Source: Closterium sp. NIES-65 (taxonomy: Eukaryota; Streptophyta; Zygnematophyceae; Desmidiales; Closteriaceae). From it: 64,000 nucleotides of DNA. The position numbers and the translations under genes are program-made. Positions 11,257 through 56,000 of this stretch are shown piece after piece. Each line of letters opens with the position of its first letter. Positions within the stretch are counted from its first letter, which is position 1. The notes under the pieces are model-generated. The model did not search any database. It had not been told where the DNA came from and saw nothing but the letters and a program-made list of their open reading frames with translations. Where the stretch lies: assembly GCA_948144175.1 (NCBI GenBank), contig CANXME010002590.1, positions 744,001 through 808,000 of the forward strand, written 5' to 3'.

Positions 11257-11267
11257 CCCCTCCCTAT

Positions 11268-25900: not shown

Positions 25901-26274
25901 ACTGTCCTTTGATAATATTTTTGTCGCGTTGCTTCGTCGTTTGCCTCCCCTTCATGTCCTCCGTCGGTGGCGGAGTCGGTGTCGGCGGCTAGTGCGTGAA
26001 TTGCTTTTCGCTCCAGAAGCACGCAGGGAATACCGATGATGTCGTCGGTGTCGCCAGCTTCGACTTGGTCTCCGGTAACGAGCAGGCATTGGTTGGGCCA
26101 TTCCCGAATTGGGAGTCCCTTCACGGGGATTTTGAGGTAACTGTATTCAGTGCCGAGGACCTCAATTTCTTGTGGTCCTTGTACTGGCGGCTCCGGCTCC
26201 TCGGTAGGTTTGGGTAACTCTGTTGGTTCTCCCATAAATTCGTAAGCTTCTTCTTCTTCTGACTCTTTTGCCAT
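22966..26274 (-). pseudogene. Element A pol: integrase, RT, RNase H
   Basis: The integrase part is a clean 524-codon frame (24700-26274): HHCC zinc site H135, H140, C177, C180, then the DDE triad D209 (YSDFMV), D271 (WQTDGALEF) and E307 (AERTNR). The next frame (24211-24693) opens reverse transcriptase (WKAAMAAEIASLKNRGTW, KARWVVRGFEQ). A TAG follows at 24211-24213, then AYVVDD-region motifs with a readable YVDD near 23940, further stops and shifts, and RNase H (LIALSSAEAEF, TKHIALRYFF) down to about 22985. Copia pol makes and inserts the cDNA in VLP and nucleus; this copy is dead because of the stops and the missing protease. Confidence 0.85.
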
Positions 26275-32118: not shown

Positions 32119-32409
32119 GTAAAGATATCAGCAGTGTTGGCCCCAGAGGCCACGTAAGCAAGGCGCAGCTGACCACGCTGCTACAGCTCACGAGCAAGGA
32201 AGTAGCGAAGAGCAATGTGCTTCGTTCTGTGCTCTAGTTTGTGCTCCCGACACAAGGCCAGCGTGGCCTTATTGTCTACGTACAGAACTGGAGGAGAACG
32301 AGGCGACTCTCCTAGGTCAGTCAGCAGGTAGGTGAGCCAGCGTAGCTCCTGTGCAGCCATGGCCCCCGCGTAGATCTCAGCCTCACAGCTGGAGTTGAGA
32401 ATAGAAGAC
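32115..32409 (-). pseudogene. Element C RNase H end fragment
   Basis: Minus-strand fragment encoding SSCEAEIYAGAMAAQELRW, YVDNKATLALCRE, TKHIALRYFLAREL and ANTADIFT. Since element B's own RNase H lies just left in the opposite orientation, the two form an inverted repeat of about 290 bp (31790-32080 against 32119-32409) with a very short spacer. Confidence 0.85.
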
Positions 32410-34868: not shown

Positions 34869-37610
34869 GGAGAGCTGTCTAGGGCAGGCGTAGCTATCTT
34901 TGTTCTTGACTTTGATGCTATCCTTGCTGCCATGTATGCTGTGACTATTAGTGATGAGGGTGTCTGTTACCGGTGTTTCCCGCCCGACCCGGGCATTGGT
35001 ACTGCTGCTCTAGGTACAGGTGAGGCTGCTGCTATAGGTGCCAGTGCGACCGCACCCTCAGGTGCTGGTGAGTCTGCGCTCTCAGGTACCACGTCGGCTT
35101 CGGCCTCCCTCACCTTCACACTTGACTCAGGGGCTTCTCGCTCCTTCTTTCGAGACCGCACCACACTCACGCCGCTTGGTCGGCCAGTTGCAGTCTCCCT
35201 GGCAAACCCCTCTGGGGGTCCTGTCCTCTCTCACTTCTCCACTGTCCTCCCGTGTCCGGCTGCCCCCTCTGGCACCTTGTCTGGTCTTTACCTCCCCTCG
35301 TTCTCTACAAACTTGGTGAGTGGTGCTGACCTGCAGGATACAGGGGTTCACCAGTTCACTCCTGCGAGTCAGCGGGTGACCCACTGCACGGACGCTCGGA
35401 CAGGCCGACACCTGGCCACGTTTACACATCGGCCGGGGTCGAGCCTGTACACACTGACCACTAAGTCTCCTCCAGTCACTGCGTCTGGTCAGGTAGCTGC
35501 GTCGGGTCAGGTGTTTGCTGCAGCGTCCAGGTCTGGTCCTGAGTCTGCCCCCTGCTCGTGTCGCCTCCTGTCTCACGAGACTCTCCTCTGGCACCACCGT
35601 CTTGGTCACCCCTACCTGCCTCGTCTCCGAGGCATGGCTTCCCGTGTCCTTGTCTCTGGTCTTCCCCGGTCCCTCCCTCCCCTTCCTCCGGGGCCTGGTC
35701 CTTCCTGTGTCCCCTGTGTCGAGGGGCGGCTCCGAGCTGCCCCTCACCCCTCTCAGTTTCCCCCGACAAAGGCCCCGCTGCAGACGCTTCACATGGACGT
35801 GTGTGGCCCGGCCCGCGTCCGTGGACAGGGTCACGAGCGCTACTTCCTGCTGGTGGTTGACGACTACTCGCGTTACACCACAGTCTTCCCCTTGCGCAGC
35901 AAGGGTGATGTCGCTGAGGTGTTGATCGACTGGATCCGCGCAGCTCATCTCCAGCTCAGGAGGAGCTTCGGCTCGGACTTTCCTGTTCTGCGTCTGCACT
36001 CTGACCGAGGCGGAGAGTTCTCCTCTGGCCTTCTGCGAGCCTACTGTCGTGCGCGAGGCATCCGCCAGACCTTTACGCTTCCGGACTCTCCACAACAAAA
36101 TGGGATTGCTGAGCGCCGCATTGGCATGGTCATGGACGTCGCTCGTACCTCCATGATGCATGCGGCTGCCCCCCATTTCCTGTGGCCGTTTGCGGTTCGG
36201 TACGCGGCGCATCAGATCAACCTTCACCCCAGGGTCTCCAGACCGGAGACCTCCCCAGCCTTGCTGTGGACGGGGAAGGTCGGCGATGCGTCTGCGTTCC
36301 GTGTCTGGGGATCTCGGGCGTTTGTCCGCGACTTGTTTGCGGACAAGCTGTCCCCTCGTGCTGCTCCCTGTGTCTTCCTTGGCTTCCCCCCTGACGCCTC
36401 TCGGTGGCAGTTCTACCACCCCACCTCTTGTCGTGTTCTGTCCTCCCAGGACGTCACGTTCGACGAGTCAGTACCCTACTACCGCCTCTTCCCCTACCGC
36501 ACTCCTTCCCTCCCCCCGCCACCGCACTTCCTTGTGCCAGGTCCCCCCCCGGTAGACCCCCTCCCCCCTCAGGGTCCTGCCCCTTCAGGTGTGTCCCAGG
36601 TAGATGCAGTTGAGCCGGTCGAGGTTGCTGGTGACTCTGGTACTGCTGCGGGTGCTGAGCCTGGGTGTGCTGACTCTGGGGGTGCTGCGCGCGTGGGTGC
36701 TGAGCCTGGGGGTGCTGCGTCTGGGGATGCTGCGACTGGGGATGCTGAGCCTGGGGGTGCCGAGCTTGGGGGTGCCGAGCCTGGGGGTGCTATGTCTTGG
36801 GGTGCTGAGCCTGGGGGTGCTACGACTGGGGGTGCTGAGCCTGGGGATCCTTCGCCTGGGGGTGCTGCGTTTGGAGCTGCTGAGCCTGAGGGTGCTGAGT
36901 CTGGAGCTACTGAGCCTGGGGGTGCGGAGCCCGCGGCCGCTGGACCTGCTCGGGTGGCGTCTGGCGGTGCTGGGCCTGCTGGTTCTCCGGGTGCTTCTTC
37001 TCGGCGGGAGCCACTCTCTCCACAGGAGTTGCGTGAGTGGTTTGCCCGGCGCTGGAGGCGTACTACTGGAGCTGGTGCTTCTTCGGCTGCTGAGGGTGCT
37101 GGTGCCCCCGGTCTCGGAGGTGCTAGTCATGCGAGTGCTACTGGAGTCGGAGCTGCTGAGGGTGTTGGCGCTGAGGCTACTGCTGTCAGTCCTGGCGGCG
37201 GTCCTGCTGCGGGTGCTACTGGTGCTGCTGGAGGTACTGGAGCTGGAGGTGCTGTTGACGCTGGTGCTGCCGCTGGGGGTACTGGTGCTGTCCCTGCTGT
37301 GTCTGGAGTCGCCGCGCGGCCTCGGCCGTACTTTGTTCCGCTCCTTCAGCAAGTTCTTGGTCTTCCTCCTCCCTTAGAGTGTCCACCGCCTATCCAGTCG
37401 CAGTCGCAGTTACCACCGGTCTCCCCACTGCCTTCTCCTTCTCCGTACACTGGTCCTACTGGAGGTCTTGCTGAGCGTCGTGAGCCTGCGTCTCGTCCTG
37501 CGTCGCCTGTTCGTGCTGCTCGCTCTAGTGGTCGTAGTTCGCGTCAGCAACCTCCTCCTGTCCCTGGCACGCACCGGATGTCTCTGCGTCCGTCCACTGC
37601 TCCTCTGCGT
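34869..37610 (+). pseudogene. Element D pol, first half (protease, integrase)
   Basis: Same frame as gag. Protease LDSGASRSFF (about 35124), pre-integrase zinc site WHHRLGHPYLP with CVPC, integrase DDE with MDVCGP, HSDRGGEF and IAERRIG, then a spacer built of GAEPGGA-type repeats (36640-36940) and proline-rich sequence to the codon CGT at 37608-37610, where element F begins. The frame resumes at 45338 after the TSD. Confidence 0.88.
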
Positions 37611-37753
37611 TGTCGCACACTTCCGGTCTTCCTTTTGCGCTCAGACTCTGCCACCCAGTTTCCTGGACTTATTAACCTTCCGATCTTGTCACCCCCTTTT
37701 GCTGGTCCTTCTTCCTCCGTCTGTAGGTGATAAGTGCTTCTGAGCCCGTCCCA
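37611..37753 (-). repeat. Extra copy of element F 3' terminus outside the LTR
   Basis: Nearly identical to 38311-38453, which holds the last codons of pol and the 3' untranslated end. It lies beyond the 3' LTR and abuts the TSD. Its outer end TGTCGCAC matches the element terminus, since the LTR also begins TGTCGCA on the minus strand. Confidence 0.85.
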
Positions 37754-37754
37754 A

Positions 37755-38308
37755 CTGCAACAAGAAGGGGCTCGGAATTACTCTTCAAGCCACAATCTCT
37801 TCTCTCAGTGTCTAGCTTAACCGCTCGTTGCTTGGCTTCTCAATCGCAGATCTAGTCGTAATGCAGTGAGAATCCTTCTTTCACTAGCAAGCATACAGAC
37901 TTTCCCACGAGTTCAAGAAGACAAGCAAGAGTGGCAGCTCAGGCTCCCTACCTAGGCTTATCACTTCCCTTCCTGTGGGGTCCCTTCTCCTCCTGGGTTG
38001 CTACCCCTGCTCAGCATCGAGATCTACTCCGTAGCGCGCGAACCTCTTCCACCCTTGGACATTTCTCGTGACCCCTCCCCCGAGTCGCTCCAGTCAGCCT
38101 TGGCCCATTCTTGCGTCACTTGGGCGTTGGGTTACTCACCCTCGACCCTCGCGCCTGTTTACTGTATATATTCCTCCTTTCTACAGTACACCCCTAATTA
38201 TTCCATTTGTCACCCTTATGTATTTCCTTTCCATACACTGGTCTTGTCTTACCTTTAGAGCTGTCCCATGAATCCTTTGATGCGTGTTTCATCAGGATTC
38301 ATGCGACA
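37755..38308 (-). repeat. 3' LTR of element F
   Basis: About 554 bp, matching 44784-45333 from AAGAAGGGGCTC to CATGCGACA. It is separated from the 3' end of the body by two bases (GC). Confidence 0.88.
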
Positions 38309-38371
38309 GCTGTCGCACACTTCCGGTCTTCCTTTCGCGCTCGGACTCTGCCACCCAGTTTCCTGGACTTA

Positions 38372-41203
38372 TTAACCTTCCGATCTTGTCACCCCCTTTT
38401 GCTGGTCCTTCTTCCTCCGTCTGTAGGTGATAAGTGCTTCTGAGCCCGTCCCATGCCCCCTCTTGGCCGCTCCTGCGTCCTCGCTTGCCGGCCGAGAAGC
38501 CACGGCTTTAGCCACATTGGTGATGTGGTCTTTCACACACCTTCCCTGCCGATTCTGTAGCACCAATACCCCGGAGTCTCTCTTCTCCAGAATCCTCCAC
38601 CGCTCCTTGCTCAGCCCACATTCCAAGGCATCCCTCCTCTGTTCACGGACATAGACCTCGTCTTCCACTTGCACTTCCTTCAGCCTGCCAGGTTGCTGGT
38701 CCTTCCCTTGTTTCCGCTGACTATACCGTCGGGCATCTCTGAGCTGAGCTACCTCCAGGTTCTCTAGGGCAGCTGGCATCACCGTTCGGAGATACTTCGC
38801 TCTAGCTACCGCCACGGCTGCCCACTTCGTCGGGTCTTCGTCATGCACCACCTCCGTCAGAATCTTAGGAGCATCCACGGGTAGGATTGGCTCCTTCCCA
38901 AACAGCAACTGATAGGGTGAGTAGTGCTTCAAAGCCTGTTGCTTGGTGAAGCGATACCCTGCCGCTATCCATGGTAGCTGCATGTCCCAGTCCCTCCGGT
39001 CCTCCTCCTCACAGTATTTGCGCAACCCTCTCTTCAATGTTTGCACCATTCTCTCTGTCAGCCCATCCGCCTGCGGGTTGTACCTGGACGTTCTCCGGTG
39101 AGTGATGCCCAGCTCTCTGAGTTGCCTGTCGAACTCCCCAGCAAACTCGCTGCCTTGGTCAGTGAGAACCTCTTCACATGCCCCGAATCTACACAGCACT
39201 TGCTGCACAAAAGCCTCAGCTACTCCTGCTGCAGTTTTCCGAGACAGAGGGGCCACCTCGATCCATTTGCTGGTGTGCTCGATCATCACCAGAATGTATT
39301 GCTTCCCCCTTCGTGATAGCGGCAGCTCGCCTGCTATGTCTAGGGACCAGCGGTACCCTATGTTTCCGATGGGCAGCGACTTTAGTTCTGCCTTGCTTTT
39401 TTCCATGGTAGCTTTCTTTCTGCTGCAGGGCTCGCACGAGGCTAATTCCTGCCGTACCTGAGCCCTCATTCCCATCCACCAGTACATAGTCTGGAGCAGT
39501 TGTGCTGTCCTTTCCCCTGCAAAGTGTCCCAGTTTCCTGTGCAATTTCAGGATTAGCTCCCTCCTTTCTTCTGGTCGGGGCACTATCCGCCACCCGTCTT
39601 CCGTAACCAACTGCAATTGCTCATCTTGCCAGCGGTAGTGCACTCCCCGTGCCCTGACTCTTGCAGGTACCTCCTCCCCTTCGGGTCCCTCTCCTTTCAC
39701 CCAGGCCAGCACCTCCTGATCTTCCCATATCTCCCTACTGCCTTTCTCTCCTGGTGACTGTCTCTTCCATCCTTCCTTCTCCGCTGCCACTGCAGAATAT
39801 ACCAATCCGGCTTCCGGCGTCACCCTTCCTTCCTCTTGCCGTGCTGGTCCTTGACGTGATAGCCCATCCACGTGTTGTAGTGTCTTCCCCGGTCGATGTC
39901 TCACCTCGAAATCGAACTCTTGGAGGCGCATGGCCCATCTGGCGTTCCTTCCTTTCAGCGTCTGGTTTGTCATTAACCAGAGCAGCGGTTGATGGTCAGT
40001 GATCAAGGTGAACTTACGTCCTTGTAAGTACGGTCTGAACAATTCCACAGCCCATACCGCTGCCAGCCCCTCACCCTCGTAAGAGCTGTAATTGCTCTCT
40101 GCGGGGCTGCAGGATCGGCTGGCATATGCCACCACTCTCTCCACTCCCTCCTCTGTTTGGCAGAGCACTGCCCCCAACCCTCCACTGCTCCAATCTGTGT
40201 ATAGCAGGAAGGGCTCATCTGGCTTGGGTAGTTTCAGCACCGGCGCCGTCTTGACCGCCTCCTTCAGCACTTTCCATGCCTCCTCCTGCTCTCTCTTCCA
40301 CTCCCAGGGCACGTCTTCCCTCAACAGCCAGTTCAAGGGTTTGGCAGTCTTGAAGAAGTTCGGGACAAACTTCCGATAATAGTTCAGGAACCCCAACTGC
40401 GCCCTCAAGGTGCTTCGATCATTTGGGGCTTGGAGCCGGTCTACAACCTCCACTTTAGCCTGCTGCACCGTCATCCCTCCCTCCCCCACCTGAAATCCGA
40501 GGTAAGATACTGTCTTCACACCGAACGTGCACTTATCTGGGTGACAAGTCAGCCCCGCTGCTTCTATTGCTGCCAACGTCTGCTGCACGTCCTTGACGTG
40601 CCGCTCACCATCCGGACTGAATATAATCACGTCGTCGATGTAGCATAAAGCACACGGTATCGTCTGCAGCACCTGATCCATGACCCTCTGGAATTTTGCT
40701 GAGGCATTCTTCAGTCCGAATGGCATATAGTTCCATTCGTATAGCCTGTCAGGGCCGTGGAAGGCTGTCTTGTGCTTATCTGCCTCTTTGATGGGGATCT
40801 GATTAAATCCCTGTCTAAGGTCTAGAGTCGAGTAGACTCTACCTTTAGACAGGTCATCAAAGATTTCCTCCACCATGGGCATAGGATACCGGTCTGCCTT
40901 GGTGATCCTATTCAGCCCTCGGTAATCCCCGCACATGCGGCGTGCCAACATGACTCCTGTCACGTCCTTCCTCGCAGCTACCACCGTGGCTGCTGCGTAC
41001 TCCGAGCTGGATTCTCTGATTAGTCCGGCCTCAAGCAATTCCTTGCATTTAGCCTCCGCCACGTCCCGATCTCCTGGATTCATCCTCCGCCTTCTCTGGA
41101 ACACTGGTTCTTCTGTCTGCAGCTCTATCTCCATCGTCGCAGTCTTACACTTGCCCAGTTCCTTGAGTGAGTGAGCGAAGGCCCCCTTAGCCTTTGTCAG
41201 CAC
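38372..41203 (-). CDS. Element F RT-RNase H-integrase
   Basis: 943 codons in the same frame as the upstream gag-methyltransferase frame, entered only through a TAA at 41213-41215 (three codons of sequence lie between; the first residue counted here is a GTG, so an independent start is unlikely). RT residues about 30-280 with LDLRQGFNQIPI, MPFGLKNASAKFQ and active site YIDD (188-191). RNase H D337, E376, D403. Integrase zinc site H555, H560, C590, C593; catalytic D622, D682, E717 (35 spacing). The C-terminal GPY-like segment has no chromodomain. It copies genomic RNA into cDNA and inserts it. All catalytic residues are present. Confidence 0.93.
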   Translation of the reverse strand: MLTKAKGAFAHSLKELGKCKTATMEIELQTEEPVFQRRRRMNPGDRDVAEAKCKELLEAGLIRESSSEYAAATVVAARKDVTGVMLARRMCGDYRGLNRITKADRYPMPMVEEIFDDLSKGRVYSTLDLRQGFNQIPIKEADKHKTAFHGPDRLYEWNYMPFGLKNASAKFQRVMDQVLQTIPCALCYIDDVIIFSPDGERHVKDVQQTLAAIEAAGLTCHPDKCTFGVKTVSYLGFQVGEGGMTVQQAKVEVVDRLQAPNDRSTLRAQLGFLNYYRKFVPNFFKTAKPLNWLLREDVPWEWKREQEEAWKVLKEAVKTAPVLKLPKPDEPFLLYTDWSSGGLGAVLCQTEEGVERVVAYASRSCSPAESNYSSYEGEGLAAVWAVELFRPYLQGRKFTLITDHQPLLWLMTNQTLKGRNARWAMRLQEFDFEVRHRPGKTLQHVDGLSRQGPARQEEGRVTPEAGLVYSAVAAEKEGWKRQSPGEKGSREIWEDQEVLAWVKGEGPEGEEVPARVRARGVHYRWQDEQLQLVTEDGWRIVPRPEERRELILKLHRKLGHFAGERTAQLLQTMYWWMGMRAQVRQELASCEPCSRKKATMEKSKAELKSLPIGNIGYRWSLDIAGELPLSRRGKQYILVMIEHTSKWIEVAPLSRKTAAGVAEAFVQQVLCRFGACEEVLTDQGSEFAGEFDRQLRELGITHRRTSRYNPQADGLTERMVQTLKRGLRKYCEEEDRRDWDMQLPWIAAGYRFTKQQALKHYSPYQLLFGKEPILPVDAPKILTEVVHDEDPTKWAAVAVARAKYLRTVMPAALENLEVAQLRDARRYSQRKQGKDQQPGRLKEVQVEDEVYVREQRRDALECGLSKERWRILEKRDSGVLVLQNRQGRCVKDHITNVAKAVASRPASEDAGAAKRGHGTGSEALITYRRRKKDQQKGVTRSEG

Positions 41204-41212
41204 CTCTTTCAG

Positions 41213-44200
41213 TTACTCCTTTTGGTCAGCGTCCAGTCCTTCCCCCATCACCCATTCTCGTTGTGAATTTTCTCCCTCTTCTCTTTCTTCTTCTGTAGCT
41301 GCCTCTTCTTTGCCCCCCTCTTCCATGGTGGCTCTGGCCATCAGGATCATTCCCCGGCTGTTAAACTGCCTCTCCTGCCGTTCACCTTCTGCCGTCTGCT
41401 CTGCCACCATCTGTCTCCACCTTTCGGCCTCTTCTACTGCTCTGTCCGGCTCGGTGTCCAGCATCTCCATATGGTCTCTCCATCGTCCTAACATCAGCAG
41501 CTGCAGCCTCATACTCTCATGCCTTTTCTCCGCTCGGTATAGCAGCCAGGCCAACGCGTGCTGATCTATGGCTCCTCCTAAGGCTCTCCGGCAGGCCTCC
41601 TCTGATACTCCTTCTGCCGCTGTCGCATTCCGTAGGTACCCCATGGCCCTTTCCCGCTCCACTGCCAGTGGTTCACCCCATTCTCCTGTCGCCAGCGTCT
41701 GGACCATCCCTGGGCCAGGCTGCTCTCCTTGCATTCTGAATGCATAGCTGCCCGGTGTCGCCACCAACGTCGGCCAGGCTTGCCGGGGTGCCCCCACTTG
41801 GTTGCACGGGTAATGAGCCCTCATGTCTGGAACTGTGACTGGCGCCACTCTCCTCCCCGGCTCTAGGATGTCTTGGACTAGCAGCGGCAAGGGTCGTTTC
41901 ATCCGGCCCAACTGATCCCTTAACACTGGCTCGGGGACCATATTCTGCCAATACCGCCTCACCCGATGAGCCCTGGCGCCCATTTGCGCTGCATCCCATG
42001 CTATCCCATGGCCTAACTCCTTAGTCACCGCTCGATGAGCCTCCCTCACCATTGTTCTTTCATCATCTGCTACGTCCAGGTTCTCAACCACGTATGCGTA
42101 CGGTCCCTGCCGGCGCTTGATCAATTTCATGATCCGTATCAGCTCATGAAAGAGCGCACTCCTTGGGTCCTCCGCTCCTCTTCCCCTCCCCGCTCGGGAT
42201 AGCCCTTGGCACTCCCAGCCTGCTATCAGCAGGTCTACTTGCCCCCAGCTCTCCACCACCTCTCTAGTCACTGCTGTTACGTCATTAAGCTCCTCTGCTT
42301 CTCGTTCTGCTTGCTCCACCACCTCCAAAGGTAACTTATCAGGGAACCGCTCGTGCAGGAGCCTGGCATGGTGGAACGCCATCCTGCGCACCTCTGGGTC
42401 CTTCTCTACGTACATCCAGCGGCCCACTGGCAGCCCCAGCCTTACGCACGCGGCCAGCCTCGGCCCGATGCCCCCGAATAGCTCCAATAGGCGTAGAGGC
42501 CGATTGAAGGTCTCAAAGTCATACGTGGGCTCCATTAATCCCCTTGCTTCCCTGGCCACCTCCACTCTATCTCCGGCTGCCTCTTCTATTCTACGCCGCT
42601 CTCCCATCCTTTCCATGAAGACTCCGACATCTTCAAACCAATTTTCTGGCACCCGCTGGTGTGACGGCTCTCGGTACACCACTCGTCCCCTCAGGAACCG
42701 TGCAGGCAGCACGGCCGTCGTATCTGCCCTCTGAGAAGCTTCGGGGTCCCAGTACCAGGGCTGGTACGTCACTCTCTCCGCCCACGTATCCACCACGGCT
42801 CCCACCTTATACAGTAACTCCATCCCCAACAGGAGATCGTAGTCTTCAGAGTCAGAGACGAGGCAGTGCACTCTGATTCGTGTTTCCTCCGCCGTCCCCG
42901 GAGATAACACCACTTCCTGCGGGCGTAGCGTCTTCGGGAGCCACTTCCCTTCTCCCCCTTCTGCCGTCTGAATGCGTGTTCCTTCCGTGGTCACGTTCTC
43001 TGGGCGGTGCAGTCCCAGCCGCTCAGCCAAGCGTCTCCCCACCAAGACTTGTGAGGCTCCCGTGTCTATAATGGTGGTGCCTAGGTACTTTCCTTCCACC
43101 GCCACTGCTCCTTCTTCTGCTTCCACCACGCATGGGCGGGAGGCCATCCTCTCGTGTGGATGCCGCAGTGGTCCTGGCCCGCCTCTGGCTCTCCTCACTG
43201 CTTGTTCTGCAGCCTCCACCGACTGCTCTCGCCTCTGTTCTGATTCCAGCCTGGGTCCTCTCCTGCTCTGCCCGACCGTGCGGCGCCCGTCCGCCCCTCC
43301 ACTCCGCAGCCCCATGTCCTCCCAGCCCCTGTTGCCCTCCGATGCCATGAAGAAAGGCTCGGGGCCCTCCTCCTCTGAATCAGATGGTGGCTTGGCCATG
43401 TGTGTCGGCAGATCCTCCTCTTCTTCCACCGCCTCTTCTTCCGCCTTGAGCTTCCTTAACTCCTCCTCCAGTGCCTCGATCCGGCTCTTCCTTCCTCCTC
43501 GCGTCCGCTGCTCCCTCTGCTTAGTGTAACAGTTGTCTGCCACATGTCCCTTGCGCCGGCAGTAGGTGCATGTCTGCAACTTGGGGCAGTCACGTTTGAA
43601 GTGACCCGGTTCCCTGCACTTCAAGCACACCGGCTCCTCTCCCGCAAGCGGCGGCGTCGCACTCCTTCCCCTTCTGGGCTTGTTAGTCTTCTCCGAATTC
43701 CTTGCCTGCTCCTCCGCATCTGGCTCGCTGTCCGCCAGCAGCACGCCACCCCACGCCACGCCTCTCCTGTCTCGGTCCCTTGTGGGCCTCTCAGCCCTTC
43801 TCCCCATATCATACAGGCTCAGTGACTGCTCGTGACGCCACGCGATCTCATACGCCTGCCTTAGCGTTGCATTAGGCCCCAGATCGTAGGTGCGGTCTCT
43901 CACCATCCTCGCTAGCTCTCCAGACAACCCATCCAGAAATTTCGCGACGATGATCCGTGGCTCGCTGCAGCCTATATCCTCCGCTAACTGATCCACCCTC
44001 CGATAATACGCCAGCAACGACTCCTTGGAGGCTCGTCGCACTTGCTCGAACTCCCTCATCCTCGCAGGAGTCTGCGTCGGGAAGTGGGTCTGCAGCTCCT
44101 CCAAGAATCGCTCCGTCGGATCACGCAGCCTCAAAACCCGCCCTTCTTCGTTGCGGCACAACCTCCCGCTCTTATCCCGCTCCTCCTCTTGCAACAGGAG

Positions 44201-44767
44201 ATCCTTGACCTCGAGGAAAAACGCTTCCGCCTCGAATGCGAGCATGTTTCCGAGCGAGCGGAAGAAGTGCCTCAGATCCAGGCCGTCCATCTCCCAGCAG
44301 TACTTCTCGCTCCGTACATGCATCGCGTAGGTCTTGAAGCGTGGACCCGCCTCTTGGTCCCCAGTAAACCGACTCGGCACCTCCACCTTCGGGAGACTCG
44401 TGTACCGATATCGATTGCCTTCTTCCCTGAGCGACCTCCGCTCTGTTCCGCCAGCAGTTATCCTTCCCGCCCCTGCCAATTCTCGAAACTCCCGGGATCC
44501 CGGCCGCGGCGATACCGATCTGTTCTCCGATCGCCTTTCTGCCCTCATGGCGAAGCCTTCAGACACACAAGTTCTCTCTCGGCGCTCCGCGGAATCTTCC
44601 CGAGGCTCCTTCTCGTGGCGATCCTCGCTCAGCCCTTCCCGACTGGCCTCCGGCTCCTTCTCATCCATATCCTTCCCCGCACCGGCTGAAGGCTGACTGC
44701 CTTCCGCAACCGACGGGACTTCTCCTTCAGGCAGCTTGGTGCCGCTGCGCAGCGACATCCCTGACAT
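41213..44767 (-). CDS. Element F gag-protease-C5 DNA methyltransferase polyprotein
   Basis: 1184 codons from ATG 44767, only 17 bp inside the 5' LTR, to TAA. Gag about 120-330; two CCHC knuckles 381-394 and 400-413; aspartic protease D568-T-G-A-S; then residues about 756-1090 a C5 cytosine methyltransferase: motif I LLELFGGIGPRLA (761-773), acidic motif II VEKD (787-790), motif III NDVT (828-831), motif IV GWECQGLS with catalytic Cys853, motif VI ENL (895-897), motif VIII ARAHRVRRYW (931-940), target-recognition-like region, and motif X around LGGAIDQHALAWLL (1063-1076). Order I-X is canonical, not rearranged as in plant DRM. Motif VIII and the LFHELIRIMK region recall DNMT3. The usual Pro before the catalytic Cys is Glu852. 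It would methylate cytosine, possibly the element's own cDNA. C-terminal acidic tail. Confidence 0.92.
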   Translation of the reverse strand: MSGMSLRSGTKLPEGEVPSVAEGSQPSAGAGKDMDEKEPEASREGLSEDRHEKEPREDSAERRERTCVSEGFAMRAERRSENRSVSPRPGSREFRELAGAGRITAGGTERRSLREEGNRYRYTSLPKVEVPSRFTGDQEAGPRFKTYAMHVRSEKYCWEMDGLDLRHFFRSLGNMLAFEAEAFFLEVKDLLLQEEERDKSGRLCRNEEGRVLRLRDPTERFLEELQTHFPTQTPARMREFEQVRRASKESLLAYYRRVDQLAEDIGCSEPRIIVAKFLDGLSGELARMVRDRTYDLGPNATLRQAYEIAWRHEQSLSLYDMGRRAERPTRDRDRRGVAWGGVLLADSEPDAEEQARNSEKTNKPRRGRSATPPLAGEEPVCLKCREPGHFKRDCPKLQTCTYCRRKGHVADNCYTKQREQRTRGGRKSRIEALEEELRKLKAEEEAVEEEEDLPTHMAKPPSDSEEEGPEPFFMASEGNRGWEDMGLRSGGADGRRTVGQSRRGPRLESEQRREQSVEAAEQAVRRARGGPGPLRHPHERMASRPCVVEAEEGAVAVEGKYLGTTIIDTGASQVLVGRRLAERLGLHRPENVTTEGTRIQTAEGGEGKWLPKTLRPQEVVLSPGTAEETRIRVHCLVSDSEDYDLLLGMELLYKVGAVVDTWAERVTYQPWYWDPEASQRADTTAVLPARFLRGRVVYREPSHQRVPENWFEDVGVFMERMGERRRIEEAAGDRVEVAREARGLMEPTYDFETFNRPLRLLELFGGIGPRLAACVRLGLPVGRWMYVEKDPEVRRMAFHHARLLHERFPDKLPLEVVEQAEREAEELNDVTAVTREVVESWGQVDLLIAGWECQGLSRAGRGRGAEDPRSALFHELIRIMKLIKRRQGPYAYVVENLDVADDERTMVREAHRAVTKELGHGIAWDAAQMGARAHRVRRYWQNMVPEPVLRDQLGRMKRPLPLLVQDILEPGRRVAPVTVPDMRAHYPCNQVGAPRQAWPTLVATPGSYAFRMQGEQPGPGMVQTLATGEWGEPLAVERERAMGYLRNATAAEGVSEEACRRALGGAIDQHALAWLLYRAEKRHESMRLQLLMLGRWRDHMEMLDTEPDRAVEEAERWRQMVAEQTAEGERQERQFNSRGMILMARATMEEGGKEEAATEEEREEGENSQREWVMGEGLDADQKE

Positions 44768-44783
44768 CGCTCAGACTCTTGCT

Positions 44784-45333
44784 TGTAAGAAGGGGCTCAT
44801 AGTTACTCTTCAAGCCACAATCTCTTCTCTCAGCGTCTAGCTTAACCGCTCGTTGCTTGGCTTCTCAATCGCAGATCTAGTCGTAAAGCAGTGAGAATCC
44901 TTCATTCACTAGCAAGCATACAGACTTTCCCACGAGTTCAAGAAGACAAGCAAGAGTGGCAGCTCAGGTTCCCTACCTAGGCTTATCACTCCCCTTCCTG
45001 TGGGGTCCCTTCTCTTCCTGGGTTGCTACCCCTGCTCAGCATCAAGATCTACTCCCTAGCGCGCGAACCTCTTCCACCCTTGGACATTTCTCGTGACCCC
45101 TCCCCCGGGTCGCTCCAGTCAGCCTTGGCCCATTCTTGCGTCACTTGGGCGTTTGGTTACTCACCCTCGACCCTCGCGCCTCTTTACTGTCTATATTCCT
45201 CCCTTCTACAGTACACCCCTAATTATTCCATTTGTCACCCTTATGTATTTCCTTTCCATACACTGGTCTTGTCTTACCTTTAGAGCTGTCCCATGAATCC
45301 TTTGATGCGTGTTTCATCAGGATTCATGCGACA
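44784..45333 (-). repeat. 5' LTR of element F
   Basis: 550 bp, TGTAAGAAG..GCGACA on the plus strand. The 16 bases between it and the gag ATG (AGCAAGAGTCTGAGCG on the minus strand) should hold the primer binding site, but no tRNA match is obvious to me. Confidence 0.88.
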
Positions 45334-45337
45334 GCGT

Positions 45338-47290
45338 GCCCCTTTGCCCTCTCCTCCTGAGTCCTCTCTTCCTGTCCTTGCCGACCCTGAGTCGGACTCT
45401 CTTCGTGCTGCCAGTCCTTCTGTCACGCGTCTCCTTGCTACTGTCCTCACTGACCCCTCCTTCGAGTCCACTGCTGCGTCTGCTCTTGTTGCTGAGCTCG
45501 TCGACTTTGCTGCTCGCTGTCCTCTAGACTACGCTGCTAGTCTTGTTGCTGAGTCTGCGTCTGTCTGTCCTCCGTCCGTCGGGGGTGAGTGTGCTCTTGG
45601 CACGGACGTCCTTGAGGACAAGCAGGAGGAGTTCCAGTGTCTGGCTGCTGCTTCACCTCATCTCGCGTCCGTACTGCTAACCCCTGAGGGAGACCCGGAT
45701 GCACTAGACATCCCGACTCCGCGCTCTTACGCGGAGGCCGTAGAGGGTCCCTACTCCTCTCAGTGGCAGGCAGCTATGGATGCAGAGATGGCTTTCTGGA
45801 AGTCCACACGCACCTACGTTGACGCGGTTCCCCCTCCTAGGGCGAACATCGTCAGTGGCATGTGGATCTTCAGGGTGAAGCGGCCGCCGGGCTCTCCACC
45901 TGTCTTCAAGGCGCGGTACGTGGCTCGTGGCTTCAGTCACCGGCAGGGAGTTGACTACTTTCAGACCTTCTCTCTCACCCCGAAGATGACCACTCTTCGG
46001 GTGCTGCTACACGTAGCCGCTCAGCGTGACTACGAGCTTCACTCCCTTGACTTCAGCACTGCTTTCCTGCAGGGTAGCCTGCACGAGGAGATCTGGTTGC
46101 GCCGTCCCCCTGGCTTCACTGGGACTTTCCCTCCTGGCACCCAGTGGATCCTCCGACGGCCAGTCTACGGTCTCCGCCAGGCTCCGCGCGAGTGGCACGA
46201 CACACTGAGGACTACACTTGCGGCTCTTGGTTTTGCTCCCTCTACTGCTGACCCGTCGCTGTTTCTACGCACCGACACCTCTCTGCCGCCGTTCTACATC
46301 CTCGTGTACGTCGACGACTTGGTCTTCGCCACAGCTGACACTGCTGGACTCGCCCACGTGAAGTCCGAGTTGCAGAAGAGACACACGTGCACAGACCTGG
46401 GTGAACTGCGCAGCTACCTTGGCTTGCAGATCACCCGAGACAGAGCACGCCGCACCATTACCCTGACTCAGTCACACATGGTGCAGCAGGTCCTTCAGCG
46501 CTTCGGCTTCACGTACTCCTTGCCTCAGGCCACTCCTCTGTCTACTCGCCACTCGCTCTCAGCTCTGCCTTCGGATGAGTCCGTAGAGTCGAGAGGCCCG
46601 TACCCAGAGCTTGTTGGCGCCCTCATGTACCTGATGACCTGCACACGACCTGACCTTGCATACCCTCTTAGCATTCTTGCACGCTATGTTGCTCCTGGGA
46701 GACACCGACCAGAGCACATGGCTGCAGCGAAGAGGGTGTTGCGCTACTTGTGCAGTACGTCGGGCATGGGGCTAGTGCTTGGAGGGCGGAGTCCAGTGGT
46801 CCTCACTGGGCACGCAGACGCTTCTTGGGCAGACGACCAGGCTACGCAGCGGTCGTCACAGGGTTACACCTTCAGCCTTGGTTCCGGCTCTGTTTCGTGG
46901 CGGGCTACTCGCTCGTCTTCTGTTCTCGACTCCTGTTGTGAGGCTGAGATCTACGCCGGGGCCATGGCTGCACAGGAGCTTCGCTGGCTTACCTACCTGC
47001 TGACTGACCTCGGAGAGCCGCCTCGTTCTCCTCCGGTGCTGTACGTAGACAACAAGGCCATGCTAGCCTTATGTCGGAAGCAGCGCCTGGAGCACACAAC
47101 GAAGCACATTGCTCTCCGCTACTTTCTTGCTCGTGAGTTGCAGCAGCGTGGTCAGTTGCGACTTGCGTACGTGGCCTCTGAGGCCAACACTGCTGATGTT
47201 TTCACCAAGGCACTTGCGCCTTGTGATCATCAGCGCTTTTGTACTCAGCTTGGTCTTGTGCCTGTCTTGCCTCACTTGCTCACCTCTTGA
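45338..47290 (+). pseudogene. Element D pol, second half (RT, RNase H)
   Basis: Continues the frame broken at 37610. RT with WQAAMDAEMAFWKSTRTY, KARYVARGFSHRQGVDY, LVYVDDLVFA and LGLQITRDRARR; RNase H with HADASWADDQATQRSSQGY, SCCEAEIYAG, YVDNKAMLAL and TKHIALRYFL; stop TGA after PHLLTS. No stop or frameshift inside. Non-functional only because element F and the TGA at 34866 separate it from its gag. Confidence 0.9.
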
Positions 47291-47636: not shown

Positions 47637-50600
47637 GAGCGGGTAGACCGCCACGAAACAGAGCCGGAGCCAAGGCTGAAGGTGTAACTCTGTGACGACC
47701 GCTGCAGAGCCTGGTCGTTAGCCCAAGAAGCGACAGCGTGACCCGTGAGGACCACTCGACGTCGCCCTCCAAGCACTAGCCCCATGCCCGACTTACTGCA
47801 CAAGTAGCGCAACACCCTCTTCGCTGCAGCCATGTGTTCTGGTCGGTGTCTGCCAGGAGCAACATAGCGTGCCAAGATGCTAAGAGGGTACGCAAGGTCA
47901 GGTCGTGTGCAGGTCATCAGGTACATGAGGCAGCCAACAAGCTCTGGGTACGGGCCACTCGGCTCTACGGACTCATCCGAAGGCAGAGCTGAGAGCGAGT
48001 GGCGAGTAGACAGAGGAGTGGCCTGAGGCGAGGAGTACGTGAAGTCGAAGCGCTGAAAGACCTGCTGCACCATGTGTGACTAAGTCAGGGTAATGGTGCG
48101 CTGTGCTCTATCCCGTGTGATCTGCAAGCCAAGGTAGCTGCGCAGTTCACCCAGGTCTGTGCACGTATGTCTCTTCTGCAGCTCGGACTTCACGTGGGCG
48201 AGTCCAGCAGTGTCAGCTGTGGCAAAGACCAAGTCGTCGACGTACACGAGGATGTAGAACGGCGGCAAAGAGGTGTCGGTGCGCAGAAACAGCGACGGGT
48301 CGGCAGTATAAGGAGCAAACCCAAGAGCCGCAAGTGTAGTCCTCAGTGTGTCGGGCCACTCACGGGGCGCGTGGCGGAGACCGTAGACTGGCCGCCGGAG
48401 GCTCCACTGGGTACCAAGAGGAAACGACCCAGTGAAGCCAGGTGGGCGGCGCAGCCAGATCTCCTCGTGCAGGCTGCCCTGCAGGAAAGCTGTGCTGAAG
48501 TCAAGAGAGTGAACCTCGTAGTCGCGCTGAGTGGCTATGTGCAGTAGCACCTGAAGACTGGTCATCTTTGGGGTGGGAGAGAAGGTCTGAAAGTAGTCAA
48601 CTCCCTGCCGCTGACTGAAGCCTCGAGCCACGTAACGCGCCTTGAAGACAGGCAGAGAACCCGGCGACCGCTTCACCCTGAAAATCCACATGCCACTGAC
48701 GATGTTCGCCCCTGGTGGGGGAACCTCGTCGATGTAGGTGCGTGTGGACTTCCAGGAAGCCATCTCTGCATCCATGGCTGACTGCCACTGAGAGGAGTAG
48801 GGACCCTTGATCGCCTCATCGTACGATCGACGAGTCGGGATGTCTGGTGCATCCGGGTCTCCCTCAGGGGCAATCAGCGTGGATACGAGATGAGGCAAAG
48901 CAGCAGCAAAACACTGGAACCCCTCCTGCCTGTCCTCAAGGACGTCTGTGCTAAGAGCACACTCACCCCCGATGGACGGAGGACAGACAGACTCAGACTC
49001 TGCAAAAAGACTGGCAGCGTAGTCTAGACGACAGCGAGCCGCGAAGTTGACAAGCTCAGCAACTAGGGCAGACGCAGCAGTGGACTCAAAGGAAGGGTCA
49101 GTGAGAACAGTGGCCAGGAGATGCGTGACAGTAGGACTGGCAGCACGAAGAGAGTCAGACTGCGGGTCAGCAAGAAGAGGAAGAGAGGACTCTTGAGGAG
49201 ACGGCAACGGGACACGCAGAGGAGCAGTGGAAGGACGCAGTGCCATCTGGTGTGTGCCTCGGACCGCAGAAGGACGTGGACGCGAAGCACGACCACTAGT
49301 GCGAGCAGCACGAACAGGCTCACGACGCTCAGCAAGACCTCTAGTAGGACTAGTGTAGGGAGAAGGAGCAGGTAGGGGGTAGGCGGGCTGTCACTGTGAC
49401 TGCGACTGGACAGGCTGCGGACACTCTAAGGGAGGAGCAGGACCAGTAGAGGGCGGGCAACCAAGAACCTGCTCAAGGAGCCGAACGAAGTACGGCCTCG
49501 GCCGCGCAGCGCCGCCAGAACCAGCAGGGACAGCACCAGTACCCCCAGCGGCAGCACCAGCGCCAGCAGCACCTCAAGCTCCAACAGCTCCACCTCCAGC
49601 ACCCACATGTGCACCAGCGCCAGCAGAAACACCAGCGCCAACACCCCAAGCGGCTCCAACTCCAGCAGCTCTAGTAGCACCCCCAGTCCCAGCAGCTCCA
49701 GTACCGCCAATACGAGCACCTCCGGGACCAGCAGCAACAGTAGTACCTCCAGCTCCAGCAGCACGGCTCCAGCGCCGGGCAAACCACTCGCGCAACTCCT
49801 GGGGAGAGAGTGGCTCCCGCCTCGACGAAGCACCGCCGGCGGCCACACGAGCAGACCTAGCTCCCCCAGGCTCCGCACCCCCAGGCTCCGCACCCCTAGG
49901 CTCAACACCTCCAGACTCAGCACCCCCAGGCTCAGCAACCCCAGACTCAGCACCCCCAGGCTCAGCACCCCCAGACTCAGCACCCCCAGGCTCAGCACCT
50001 CTAACATCACCAGAGTCAACAGCTACCTCGACAGACTCGACTGGGTCTACCTGGGACACACCTGACCAGGACCCTGAGGGGGGAGGGGGTCTACCGGGGG
50101 AGGACCTAGCGCAAGGAAGAGCGGGGGCGGGGGAAGGGGCGTAGTGCGGTAGGGGAAGAGACGGTAGGAAGGTACCGACTCGTCAAAGGTGACGTCCTGG
50201 GAGGACAGAACACGGCGCGAGGTGGGGTGGTAAAACTGCCACCCAGGCGTGTCAGGGGGGGAGCCAAGGAAGACGCAGGGAACAGCACGGGGGGACAGCT
50301 TGTCCGCAGACAAGTCGCGGACAAACGCCCGAGATCCCCAGACCCGGAACGCAGACGCATCGCCAACCTTCCCCGTCCACCGCAAGGTGGGGGAGGTCTC
50401 TGGCAAGGAGACCCGGGGCTGAAGGTTGAGCTGATGCGCGGCGTACTGAATCGCAAATGGCCACAGGAAATGGGGGCAGCCGCATGCATCATGGACGTAC
50501 GAGCGACGTCCATGACCATGCCAATGCGGCACTCAGCAATCCCATTTTGCTGTGGAGAGGCCGGAAGCGTGAAGGTCTGGCGGATGTCCTGTGCACGACA

Positions 50601-53048: not shown

Positions 53049-56000
53049 TCAAGAGGTGAGCAAGTGAGGCAAGACAGGTACAAGACCCAGCTGGGTGCAG
53101 AAGCGCTGATGATCACAAGGCGCAAGTGCCTTGGTGAAGACATCAGCAGTGTTGGCCTCAGAGGCCACGTACGCAAGCCGCAACTGACCACGCTGCTGTA
53201 GCTCACGAGCAAGGAAGTAGCGGAGAGCAATGTGCTTTGTTCTGTGCTCCAGGCGCTGCTCTCGACACAAGGCCAGCATGGCCTTGTTGTCTACGTACAG
53301 GACTGGAGGAGAACGAGGCGGCTCTCCAAGGTCAGTCAGCAGGTAGGTGAGCCAGCGAAGCTCCTGAGCAGCCATGGCCCCTGCGTAGATCTCAGCCTCA
53401 CAATTGGAGCCGAGAACAGAAGACGAGCGAGTAGCCCGCCACGAAACAGAGCCGGAACTAAGGCTGAAGGTGTAACCCTGTGACGACCGTTGCGTAGCCT
53501 GGTCGTCACCCCAAGAAGCGTCTGCGTGACCAGTGAGGACCACTGGACTCCGCCCTCCAAGCACTAGCCCCATGCCCGACGTACTGCACAAGTAGCGCAA
53601 CACCCTCTTCGCTGCAGCCATGTGCTCTGGTCGGTGTCTCCCAGGAGCAACATAGCGTGCGAGAATGCTAAGAGGGTATGCAAGGTCAGGTCGTGTGCAG
53701 GTCATCAGGTACATGAGGCAGCCAACAAGCTCTGCAAATGGGCCACTCGACTCTACGGACTCATCCGAAGGCAGAGCTGAGAGCGAGTGGCGAGTAGGCA
53801 GAGGAGTGGCCTGAGGCGAGGAGTACGTGAAGCCGAAGCGCTGAAGGACCTGCTGCACCATGTGTGACTGAGTCAGGGTGATGGTGCGGCGTGCTCTGTC
53901 CCGGGTGATCTGCAAGCCAAGGTAGCTGCGCAGTTCACCCAGGTCTGTGCACGTGTGTCTCTTTTGGAGCTCGGACTTCACGTAGGCGAGTCCAGCAGCG
54001 CAGCTGTGGCAAAGACCAAGTCGTCGACGTACACGAGGATGTAGAACGGCGGCAGAGAGGTGTCGGTGCGTAGAAACGGCGACGGGTCGGCAGTAGAGGG
54101 AGCAAACCGAAGAGCCGCAAGCGTAGTCCTCAGTGTGTCGTGCCACTCACGCGGTGCCTGGCGGAGACTGTAGACTGGCCGCCGGAGGCTCCACTGGGTG
54201 CCAGGAGGAAAAGTCCCAGTGAAGCCAAGTGGGCGGCGCAGCCAGATCTCCTCGTGCAGGCTGCCCTGCAGGAAGGCAGTGCTGAAGTCAAGAGAGTGTA
54301 GCTCCTAGTCACGGTGAGCAACTATGTGCAGCAGAACCCGAAGAGTGGTCATCTTCGGGGTGGGAGAGAAGGTCTGAAAGTAGTCAACTCCCTGCCGCTG
54401 ACTGAAGCCACAAGCCACGTAACGCGCCTTGAAGACAGGCGGAGAACCCGGCGGCCGCTTCACCCTGAAAATCCACATGCCACTGACGATGTTCGCCTTA
54501 GGAGGGGGGACAGGGTCAACGTAGGTGCCTGTGGACTTCCAGGAAGCCATCTCTGCATCCATAGCTGCCTGCCACTGAGAAGAGTAGGGACCCTTTATCG
54601 CCTCCGTGTAAGAGCGCGGAGTCGGGATGTGAAGTGCATCCGGGTCTCCCTCAGGGGTAAGCAGTACGGACACGAGATGAGGTGAAGCAGCGGCCAAGCA
54701 CTGGAACTCCTCCTGCCTGTCCTCAAGGACGTCCGTGCCAAGGGAACACTCACCCCCGACGGACGGAGGACAGACAGACTCAGACTCAGCGACAAGACTA
54801 GCAGCGTAGTCTAGACGACAGCGAGCAGCAAAGTGGACGAGCTCAACAACTAGGGCAGACGCAACAGTGGACTCAATAGAAGGGTCAGTGACGACAGTAG
54901 CAAGGAGACGCGTGACAGTAGGACTGGCAGCACGAAGAGAGTCCTACTCTGGGTCGGGAAGAGCAGGAAGAGAGGACTCAGGAGGAGAAGGCAAAGGGGC
55001 ACGTAGAGGAGCAGTGGACGGACGCAGAGACATCCGGTGCGTGCCAGGGACACGAGGAGGACGCTGACGCGAACCGCAACCACTAGTGCGAGCAGTACGA
55101 ACAGGCGACGCAGGGCGAGACGCAGGCTCACGACGCTCAGCAAGACCTCCAGTAGGACCAGTGTAGGGAGAAGGAGCAGGCAGTGGGGAGGCGGGCTGTA
55201 ACTGTAACCGTGACTGGACAAGCTGTGGACACTCTAAGGGACGAGGAGGACCGAGAGAAGGCGGGAGACCAAGAACCTGCTGAAGGAGCGGAACGAAGTA
55301 CGGCCGCTGCTGTGCAGCGACTCCAGAACCAGCAGAGACACCAGCGCCAGGGTCCTCCGCACCAGCAGCAGCTCCAACGCCCGACTCCACAGCACCAGCA
55401 GCAGCACCAGCTCCAGGGTCCTCAGCACCAGCAGCAGCTCCAACGCCCGGGTCCTCAGTACCGGCAGCAGCTCCAACGCACGGGTCCTCAGCACCAGCAG
55501 CAGCACCAGCGCCCGGGTCTGCAGCACCAGCCGTAGCTCCAACGCCCGGGTCCGCAGCACCAAAAACAGCTCCAAACTTTAGGGCCGCAGCACCAGCAGA
55601 ACCGGTAGAGTCTCCAGCACCAGTAGCACCACAAGCAGCAGCGGGGTCCGCGACACCAAGCGCGCCACTCCGAAGAGTGCAGCACCGCTCGTACCACTCA
55701 CGGATCCGCTCACGGGAGGGGAGCTCCCGGCTAGGAGGAGAAGCACTAGCACCAGTCCCAGTAGTATGCCTGGCTCCAGAGGTACCTCTTCTAAGGCTGC
55801 AATACTGGAAGTACCACTCACGCAGCAGCTCCGAGGAGAGGGCTCCGCCAGGTGTAGGACCCTCAGGCTCAGGACCTCCAGACTCAGAACCCCCAGACTC
55901 AGTACTCCCAGGCTCAGCACCCCCAGGCTCAGTACTCCCAGGCTCAGCACCCCAAGGCTCCGCACCCCAAGGCTCAGCACCCCCAGGCTCCGCACCCCCA

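Follow-up and report, generated by a model that had tools for sequence, protein, structure and literature searches.

A Ty3/Gypsy retrotransposon family of Closterium with a DNMT3-related methyltransferase and split terminal repeats

Retrotransposons that carry cytosine-5 DNA methyltransferases (MTs) were described in 2018 by de Mendoza et al. (PMC5890265). In KnitGypsy-Dnmt3 of Klebsormidium nitens, an unpermuted Dnmt3-type enzyme lies in a Gypsy Pol frame; the element is intronless, evolves under purifying selection and has DIRS-like repeats (PMC5890265). For green algae, Ty3/Gypsy and DIRS elements that encode a methylase have also been mentioned (PMC6338049), and a wider distribution is therefore not new in itself. 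Here we describe an MT-bearing element in a 64,000-nucleotide stretch of the Closterium sp. NIES-65 genome (contig CANXME010002590.1, positions 744,001 to 808,000; hereafter the window). We consider it probable that this element represents an abundant Ty3/Gypsy family of the order gag-protease (PR)-MT-reverse transcriptase (RT)-RNase H (RH)-integrase (IN), whose DNMT3-related MT is under selection and acts on the element's own cDNA, and which is self-primed and integrates from an opened circle.

Coding regions and copies in the host genome

A sequence-only reading of this DNA had proposed a retrotransposon with a C5 methyltransferase between PR and RT, encoded in an open reading frame (ORF) at 41213..44767, and both the order and the frame (ORF1, minus strand) were borne out (Table 1). 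A Pfam scan matched the aspartic protease it had named, as a gag-asp protease, and one of its two CCHC knuckles; the second is visible in the translation. Its gag assignment fits the position and the knuckles, although no gag domain was matched. The DNA_methylase profile that it had proposed as a check gave a significant match to PF00145 (35.4 bits against a cut-off of 22, E 1.1e-8). RT, RH, H2C2 and the rve integrase all lie in ORF2, so that the MT does precede RT-RH-IN as claimed, but in a separate frame. The description of the copy as nearly intact is qualified by an in-frame stop that splits gag-PR-MT from RT-IN. Same-genome relatives have longer frames, up to 2159 amino acids within the near family. 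The order PR-RT-RH-IN with an rve integrase is that of Ty3/Gypsy elements, with the MT placed between PR and RT, and the scan of ORF1 and ORF2 matched no phage-integrase (tyrosine recombinase) domain. The reported target site duplication (TSD) was also confirmed, as an uninterrupted copia relative in the window (48080-49390, minus strand) displays the empty insertion site.

Copy searches covered the host genome of 874 Mb and returned lower bounds: the PF00145 profile gave at least 123 scored MT places (901 candidates), and the window MT as query gave at least 116 (1415 candidates), with stop codons inside the match at 17 of the 116 by our own count. RT copies without an MT segment, which the sequence-only reading had named as evidence against itself, were absent among those checked. 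At least 83% identical RT copies had an MT place immediately upstream in 25 of 25 cases (matched by eye to the MT lists), and PR-MT preceded all 10 of the RT copies examined at 68-70% identity, which are absent from the MT lists and all read GWECQ at the active site. These ten were drawn from 75 further rows; 100 RT places were scored among 13,869 first-look candidates.

Conservation was examined more closely in the window copy and loci L009-L028, 20 loci picked from PF00145 places whose Pfam match contains no stop and which mostly have long frames; stops inside the MT were found in 0/21 and GWECQ in 21/21. The eight best Pfam matches (L001-L008) showed stops in the aligned MT stretches in three cases and GWECQ in all. 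Median ratios of nonsynonymous to synonymous substitution (dN/dS), from pairs with dS 0.05-1 that amount to about three independent contrasts, were 0.089 for MT (11 pairs), 0.096 for RT (12), 0.069 for gag (10) and 0.053 for IN (12).

Two side observations concern these copies. Stops within MT matches were mainly TAG (20 of 25 by our count, with 4 TGA and 1 TAA), an excess that C-to-T change at CAG, one of the CHG contexts of methylation, might explain. Head-to-tail arrays of the element with constant spacing were seen at G000:C995:458383-475246 (three units, 7064 bp) and at G000:C382 (L025; two units, 7088 bp), and may derive from multi-unit circles or unequal crossing-over.

The methyltransferase and its green-algal relatives

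An AlphaFold2 model of the MT domain (mean predicted local distance difference test score 89.2, predicted template modelling score 0.87) aligned with DNMT3A/3B over its whole length, and DNMT3A/DNMT3B were the best match across the catalytic domain both in sequence (PDB sequences) and in fold. The domain has an unpermuted C5-methyltransferase fold nearest DNMT3. A DRM-type permutation was ruled out by the canonical motif order and the collinear fold, and a bacterial or viral origin was rejected because DNMT3 was best by both measures; a viral_contigs scan found 15 loci, matching at 31-46% identity along short stretches, and the sole NCBIfam match was a sub-threshold dcm. In profile search A2, DNMT3A came first among methyltransferase matches (E 7e-23); as that search spans whole polyproteins, its Ty3, integrase and PHD matches do not bear on the MT. 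The enzyme had been called complete-looking, which holds for the domain and its motif order but not for motif IV, where GWECQ shows Glu at the position normally taken by Pro. DNMT3A/DNMT3B have Pro-Cys at this site; the element MT further differs from them in being part of a polyprotein and in giving no PWWP or ADD match in the Pfam scan.

Three protein searches, with about 8000 candidates scored in each and one listing 120 of 164, yielded at least 161 proteins, the window's own included. Among the matches listed, the nearest named proteins over the whole MT region came from Closterium NIES-54 (82%) and NIES-68 (73%). Two layouts were found, PR-MT-RT-RH-IN and RT-RH-MT-IN. The former is complete in Closterium P0004, and its PR-MT part is present in P0156 (Mesostigma by source name); among the matches listed, the latter had Haematococcus lacustris and Scenedesmus sp. 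PABB004 as named hosts, and most of its other members were metagenome contigs. A FastTree phylogeny of 151 rows, including two outgroups, placed the RT-RH-MT-IN layout in one clade with support 100. The one exception, P0021 (Haematococcus), was rejected as a PR-MT case, being nearly identical to P0099 and probably a gene-model artefact. A PHD finger follows the integrase in 112 of the 127 proteins whose MT follows RH or precedes IN, and some of the others are fragments; P0015, P0017, P0061, P0099 and P0112 are among these chlorophyte-type relatives. Chromoviruses carry a chromodomain in the position after integrase, and DNMT3 uses a PHD-like ADD domain. Two MT-family proteins, P0091 and P0146, are labelled as metagenome-assembled genomes of Minisyncoccia and Obscuribacterales, and possibly represent algal contigs binned as bacterial. 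Pairwise MT and RT distances were correlated (r 0.74, 0/999 permutations, 108 sequences), and also within the chlorophyte type (r 0.73); the charophyte type contributed 11 sequences, nine of them from the genome of the window. This agreement indicates that the MT travelled with the RT.

The active site was compared across the 151 rows, which comprise 149 proteins of at least 250 amino acids and outgroups P0160 and P0161; ten proteins that were short, long or without MT were omitted. The residue preceding the catalytic Cys was Glu in 89 rows, Pro in 51 (two being the outgroups), Ser in 8 and Ala in 3, whereas the Cys itself was kept in 151/151 and the motif VI Glu-Asn in 150/151. At least 13 changes of the preceding residue are required on the tree, and the Cys was never lost; the Glu variant is therefore old and recurrent, and not a product of decay in the window copy. 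The tree, whose root is weakly placed (two long outgroup rows, support 73), gives no firm ancestral residue. In this green-algal Gypsy clade the enzyme may largely have turned into a Glu-Cys variant, whose chemistry may be unlike that of classical DNMTs. These natural Pro/Glu/Ser/Ala swaps beside an invariant catalytic Cys provide a ready comparative experiment on C5-methyltransferase chemistry.

Element ends, proposed cycle and alternatives

The sequence-only reading had reported both long terminal repeats (LTRs), a claim that failed: no complete identical LTRs stand at both ends, and an ordinary LTR pair was rejected. The window copy instead reads A1-coding-B1-GC-A2-B2 in the sense direction, with A1 only at its 5' end and the rest at its 3' end. 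Such split direct repeats are a mark of DIRS, PAT and Ngaro elements, whereas the tyrosine recombinase that replaces integrase in those groups is not found here. Ends were examined in 24 copies (window, L009-L028 and L044-L046). Fourteen had the split-repeat form with a 4-bp TSD, three the shorter form A-coding-B with a TSD (L009, L011, L026) and two A-coding-B without a matching TSD (L020, L028); the form was not settled in five (L014, L015, L025, L044, L045). A 4-bp TSD was thus present in 17 of the 19 classified copies, as scored with TGTC/GACA taken as the ends where it lay no further than 22 nt from a repeat border (raw borders fell at or near these letters), and is of the short kind left by Ty3/Gypsy DDE integrases. 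The B1/A2 junction, GACAGCTGTC, was exact in 13 of 14 split-repeat copies, L016 having one change. The A2/B2 joint, in contrast, varied from -4 to +8 nt (the window copy carries an 8-nt filler), and L022, a copy with an altered B1, reaches +27; L017 has about 270 nt of extra leader. An exact B1/A2 junction with a variable A2/B2 joint is what templating of the former and end joining of the latter would produce.

Two further signals lie at the repeat borders. A GGGGGC purine tract coincided with the B1 start, or lay no more than about 15 nt from it, in 12 of 13 split-repeat copies (exception L022). In 11 of the 13, a stretch of 12-13 nt directly following A1 had its complement inside A1, against an average of 6-7 nt in shuffles. 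L017 showed only 6 nt there because its A repeat extends beyond the border; a second scan found a 13-nt pair at its inner border, raising the total to 12/13. That scan, of 13 loci for pairs of at least 12 nt lying 60-260 nt apart, found a pair in nine (window, L009, L011, L012, L014, L017, L020, L024, L028), with starts 105-173 nt apart. L009, L011, L014 and L020 are loci new relative to the first scan, with the A border known or homologous, and L028 adds to these. In 63 kb of coding interior, 0 pairs were found. The paired sequences vary between families yet remain complementary. Complementary stretches of 12-14 nt around the A end may point to Tf1-type self-priming, in which the primer-binding site would pair with the transcript 5' end. 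Together, the purine tract and the primer site would define an LTR of the form B-GC-A with U3 and U5 borders of the ordinary kind.

From the anatomy, the TSDs, the conserved junction, the primer complementarity and the MT conservation, which were observed directly, we infer a transcript start, a circle, an integrase cut, and an activity and target of the MT that would form the following cycle. Transcription would start in A, and the transcript's leading 12 or so nucleotides would pair back with the primer-binding site that directly follows A, serving as the primer for reverse transcription in the manner of Tf1. Self-priming of this kind, combined with the purine tract ahead of B, would generate ordinary B-GC-A LTRs, and closure of the linear DNA would yield a 2-LTR circle. 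Ignoring the LTR ends, the DDE integrase would then cut within a single LTR, at the palindrome GACA^GC^TGTC; the resulting recessed CA-3' ends, each with a 2-nt 5' overhang, would be inserted with a 4-bp duplication. Prototype foamy virus integrase, which cleaves a palindromic 2-LTR junction with 2-nt 5' overhangs (PMC1180852), is the precedent that we draw on. A 2-LTR circle opened in one LTR would give A1-coding-B1-A2-B2, and the short A-coding-B copies would come from a 1-LTR circle or from cutting of both LTRs. The MT, carried in the particle with RT and IN, would most likely act on the cDNA, methylating its double-stranded or circular form no later than integration; that it marks the element's own cDNA is plausible.

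Paired repeats, taken as identical at insertion, were also compared for traces of methylation. In 13 copies, C/T differences fell on 27 of 694 CpG sites versus 45 of 4541 other C sites (odds ratio 4.0, p 1.6e-7, the sites of one copy not being independent). This fits inserted copies that appear CpG-methylated, whichever enzyme is responsible. The CpG observed/expected ratio of the window element, 0.70, was similar to that of its surroundings (0.64 and 0.75).

Four other explanations were weighed. The MT might be catalytically dead or altered, the Glu before its Cys pointing to a DNA-binding, DNMT3L-like structural part of the polyprotein, as the Glu, Ser and Ala rows of the alignment and the failure of KnitGypsy-Dnmt3 to methylate in yeast (PMC5890265) would suggest; we consider this unlikely, given the retained Cys and motif VI, the repeated change of the neighbouring residue without loss of the Cys, and a median MT dN/dS that resembles that of RT. 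That the MT was picked up once by chance and now decays as a passenger is barely credible: the stop after the MT in the window copy and the stops within other matches speak for it, but the MT stands upstream of every RT copy checked, near or more distant, so that the copy survey already contradicts it, and dN/dS is low. Action in trans, on host chromatin or invading DNA viruses and not on the element's own DNA, draws on an antiviral role proposed for such domains (PMC6338049) and on the argument that Symbiodinium retrotransposon methyltransferases have possibly changed the methylome (PMC5890265). It appears distinctly improbable, as the position of the MT beside RT and IN in both layouts points to a role in the element cycle, the MT is co-inherited with RT, and the K. 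nitens methylome is plant-like (PMC5890265). Finally, the split repeats could arise by DIRS-like bridging of cDNA ends on a B1-A2 template in place of a standard 2-LTR circle. PAT elements have the same A1-coding-B1-A2-B2 layout, and Ngaro and VIPER have split repeats too (PMC4157794). We doubt this route, however, because the purine tract at B and the self-complementary primer site at the A end mark ordinary U3/U5 borders, the A2/B2 joints are variable, and 4-bp TSDs accompany a DDE integrase, including in three A-coding-B copies.

Several observations weigh against the reading that we prefer, a selected MT acting on the cDNA of a self-primed, circle-opened element. Glu for Pro in motif IV could impair catalysis, no methylation by KnitGypsy-Dnmt3 was seen in yeast, a result that its authors call inconclusive (PMC5890265), and the CpG signature may stem from host methylation. 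The case for selection is affected by the way L009-L028 were picked, by the few independent contrasts behind the dN/dS medians, and by higher MT ratios in very close pairs (0.22-0.62 at dS >0 and <0.05, from few changes). As to the primer, L018 has a complement of 8 nt at the post-A1 site and no pair in the second scan, in which the full complement was also absent from L026, L044 and L046. As to the ends, the survey comprised MT-carrying copies only, and a link of split repeats to the MT is not separable from that choice; placing ends at TGTC/GACA makes the terminal letters partly a matter of choice; L020 and L028 lack matching TSDs; L014 has A1, A2 and the junction, yet its TSD-flanked 3' end was not found; and L021 and L023, with flank and TSD in common, possibly represent a single insertion counted twice.

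The element is nested in a copia element (34932-37730 and 45293-47290, plus strand), splitting the copia integrase from the copia RT part, and other copia copies lie at 27535-32157 (plus), 24700-26274 (minus) and 48080-49390 (minus). Tandem repeats of 15 bp, differing in copy number, occur at 36646-36931, 49859-49999 and 55859-56121; the first is inside a copia frame between integrase and RT, and the other two are apparently also in copia copies. Long frames overlapping on both strands at 1-1672, 9899-11265 and 14724-16174 correspond to tandem repeats of 18, 4 and 16 bp (Tandem Repeats Finder scores >2000), and four frames tested at these stretches gave no Pfam match.

Table 1. Features of the methyltransferase element, in window coordinates
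Feature	Position	Strand	Remarks
Whole element	37611..45333	-	7723 bp, sense strand minus, ends TGTC..GACA
TSD GCGT, left copy	37607..37610	.	equals empty site in related copia 48080-49390
TSD GCGT, right copy	45334..45337	.	
Repeat A1, 5' end (part of U3, R, U5)	44787..45333	-	97.1% identity to A2 over 549 nt, two further bases in alignment
Putative self-primer ACTCTTGCTTGT (sense)	44946..44957	-	
Primer-binding site ACAAGCAAGAGT (sense)	44775..44786	-	complementary to self-primer
ORF1, gag - protease - methyltransferase	41213..44767	-	1184 amino acids
CCHC zinc knuckle, residues 380-396	43580..43630	-	Pfam PF00098 (zf-CCHC); second knuckle after it, in translation
Aspartic protease, residues 557-652	42812..43099	-	Pfam PF13975
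DNMT3-like C5-methyltransferase domain, residues about 750-1075	41543..42520	-	PF00145, PDB sequences, structure model, fold
Catalytic Cys853 codon in GWECQ	42209..42211	-	
In-frame stop between ORF1 and ORF2, window copy	41213..41215	-	
ORF2, RT - RNase H - H2C2 - DDE integrase	38372..41203	-	943 amino acids; Pfam
Polypurine tract AAGAGGGGG	38456..38464	-	just ahead of B1
Repeat B1	38311..38453	-	98.6% identity to B2
Palindromic junction GACA-GC-TGTC	38305..38314	.	B1 end, GC, A2 start
Repeat A2	37762..38308	-	
8-nt filler at A2/B2 joint	37754..37761	-	
Repeat B2, 3' end	37611..37753	-	

Comparison with known retroelements

KnitGypsy-Dnmt3 resembles the Closterium element in having a Dnmt3 in a Gypsy Pol and DIRS-like repeats, as given in its published description (PMC5890265); among the matches listed by the three protein searches, one of them giving 120 of 164, no K. 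nitens sequence is named. The Closterium family differs in its more than 100 scored MT places (lower bounds), and its TSDs, GC palindrome, putative self-priming and short forms are features not discussed for KnitGypsy-Dnmt3 in the available sections of PMC5890265. SymbioDIRS-Dnmt3 and SymbioLINE-Dnmt of Symbiodinium are also retroelement-borne cytosine methyltransferases, SymbioDIRS with split repeats and a Dnmt3 that methylates CG in yeast; they use tyrosine recombinase or LINE machinery, not a DDE integrase, and were captured independently according to the authors (PMC5890265). A search of openly licensed literature turned up neither title nor abstract dealing with the Closterium elements or with a split-repeat Gypsy that integrates by way of a 2-LTR circle. 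As a large conserved family, the Closterium elements offer a chance to test the role of DNMT-carrying retrotransposons, which the 2018 description left open.

Tf1 is not known to carry a methyltransferase and has ordinary LTRs at both ends. The likeness to Tf1/Tj1 would lie in a primer-binding site that pairs with 5' sequence of the element's own RNA; the parts named for Tj1 are LTRs, Gag, PR, RT and IN (PMC4600332). In prototype foamy virus the palindrome is the LTR-LTR joint (PMC1180852), whereas in the Closterium element it would lie inside the inferred LTR. PAT, Ngaro and VIPER share split direct repeats with the Closterium element, and DIRS and PAT also encode a methyltransferase domain, but DIRS/PAT and Ngaro/VIPER use a tyrosine recombinase and have no integrase (PMC4157794), in contrast to the DDE integrase and 4-bp TSDs found here. 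It is conceivable, though we hold it only tentatively and as less likely than otherwise, that retroelements with split repeats, and with them probably a circular cDNA stage irrespective of the integrating enzyme, took up methyltransferases apparently independently (Dam-like in DIRS/PAT, Dnmt3 in SymbioDIRS and in the present Gypsy elements with their DDE integrase), and that the enzyme marks or protects the circle or controls its opening; Ngaro and VIPER, with split repeats and no methyltransferase (PMC4157794), count against this. Circle opening at an internal palindrome, if true, would explain the DIRS look of an element with a retroviral-type integrase. Overall, we conclude that this is a real DNMT-carrying Gypsy element, and that what it adds to the systems described before is its ends, its putative self-primer, its Glu-Cys site and a green-algal clade of two layouts, more than the presence of an MT.

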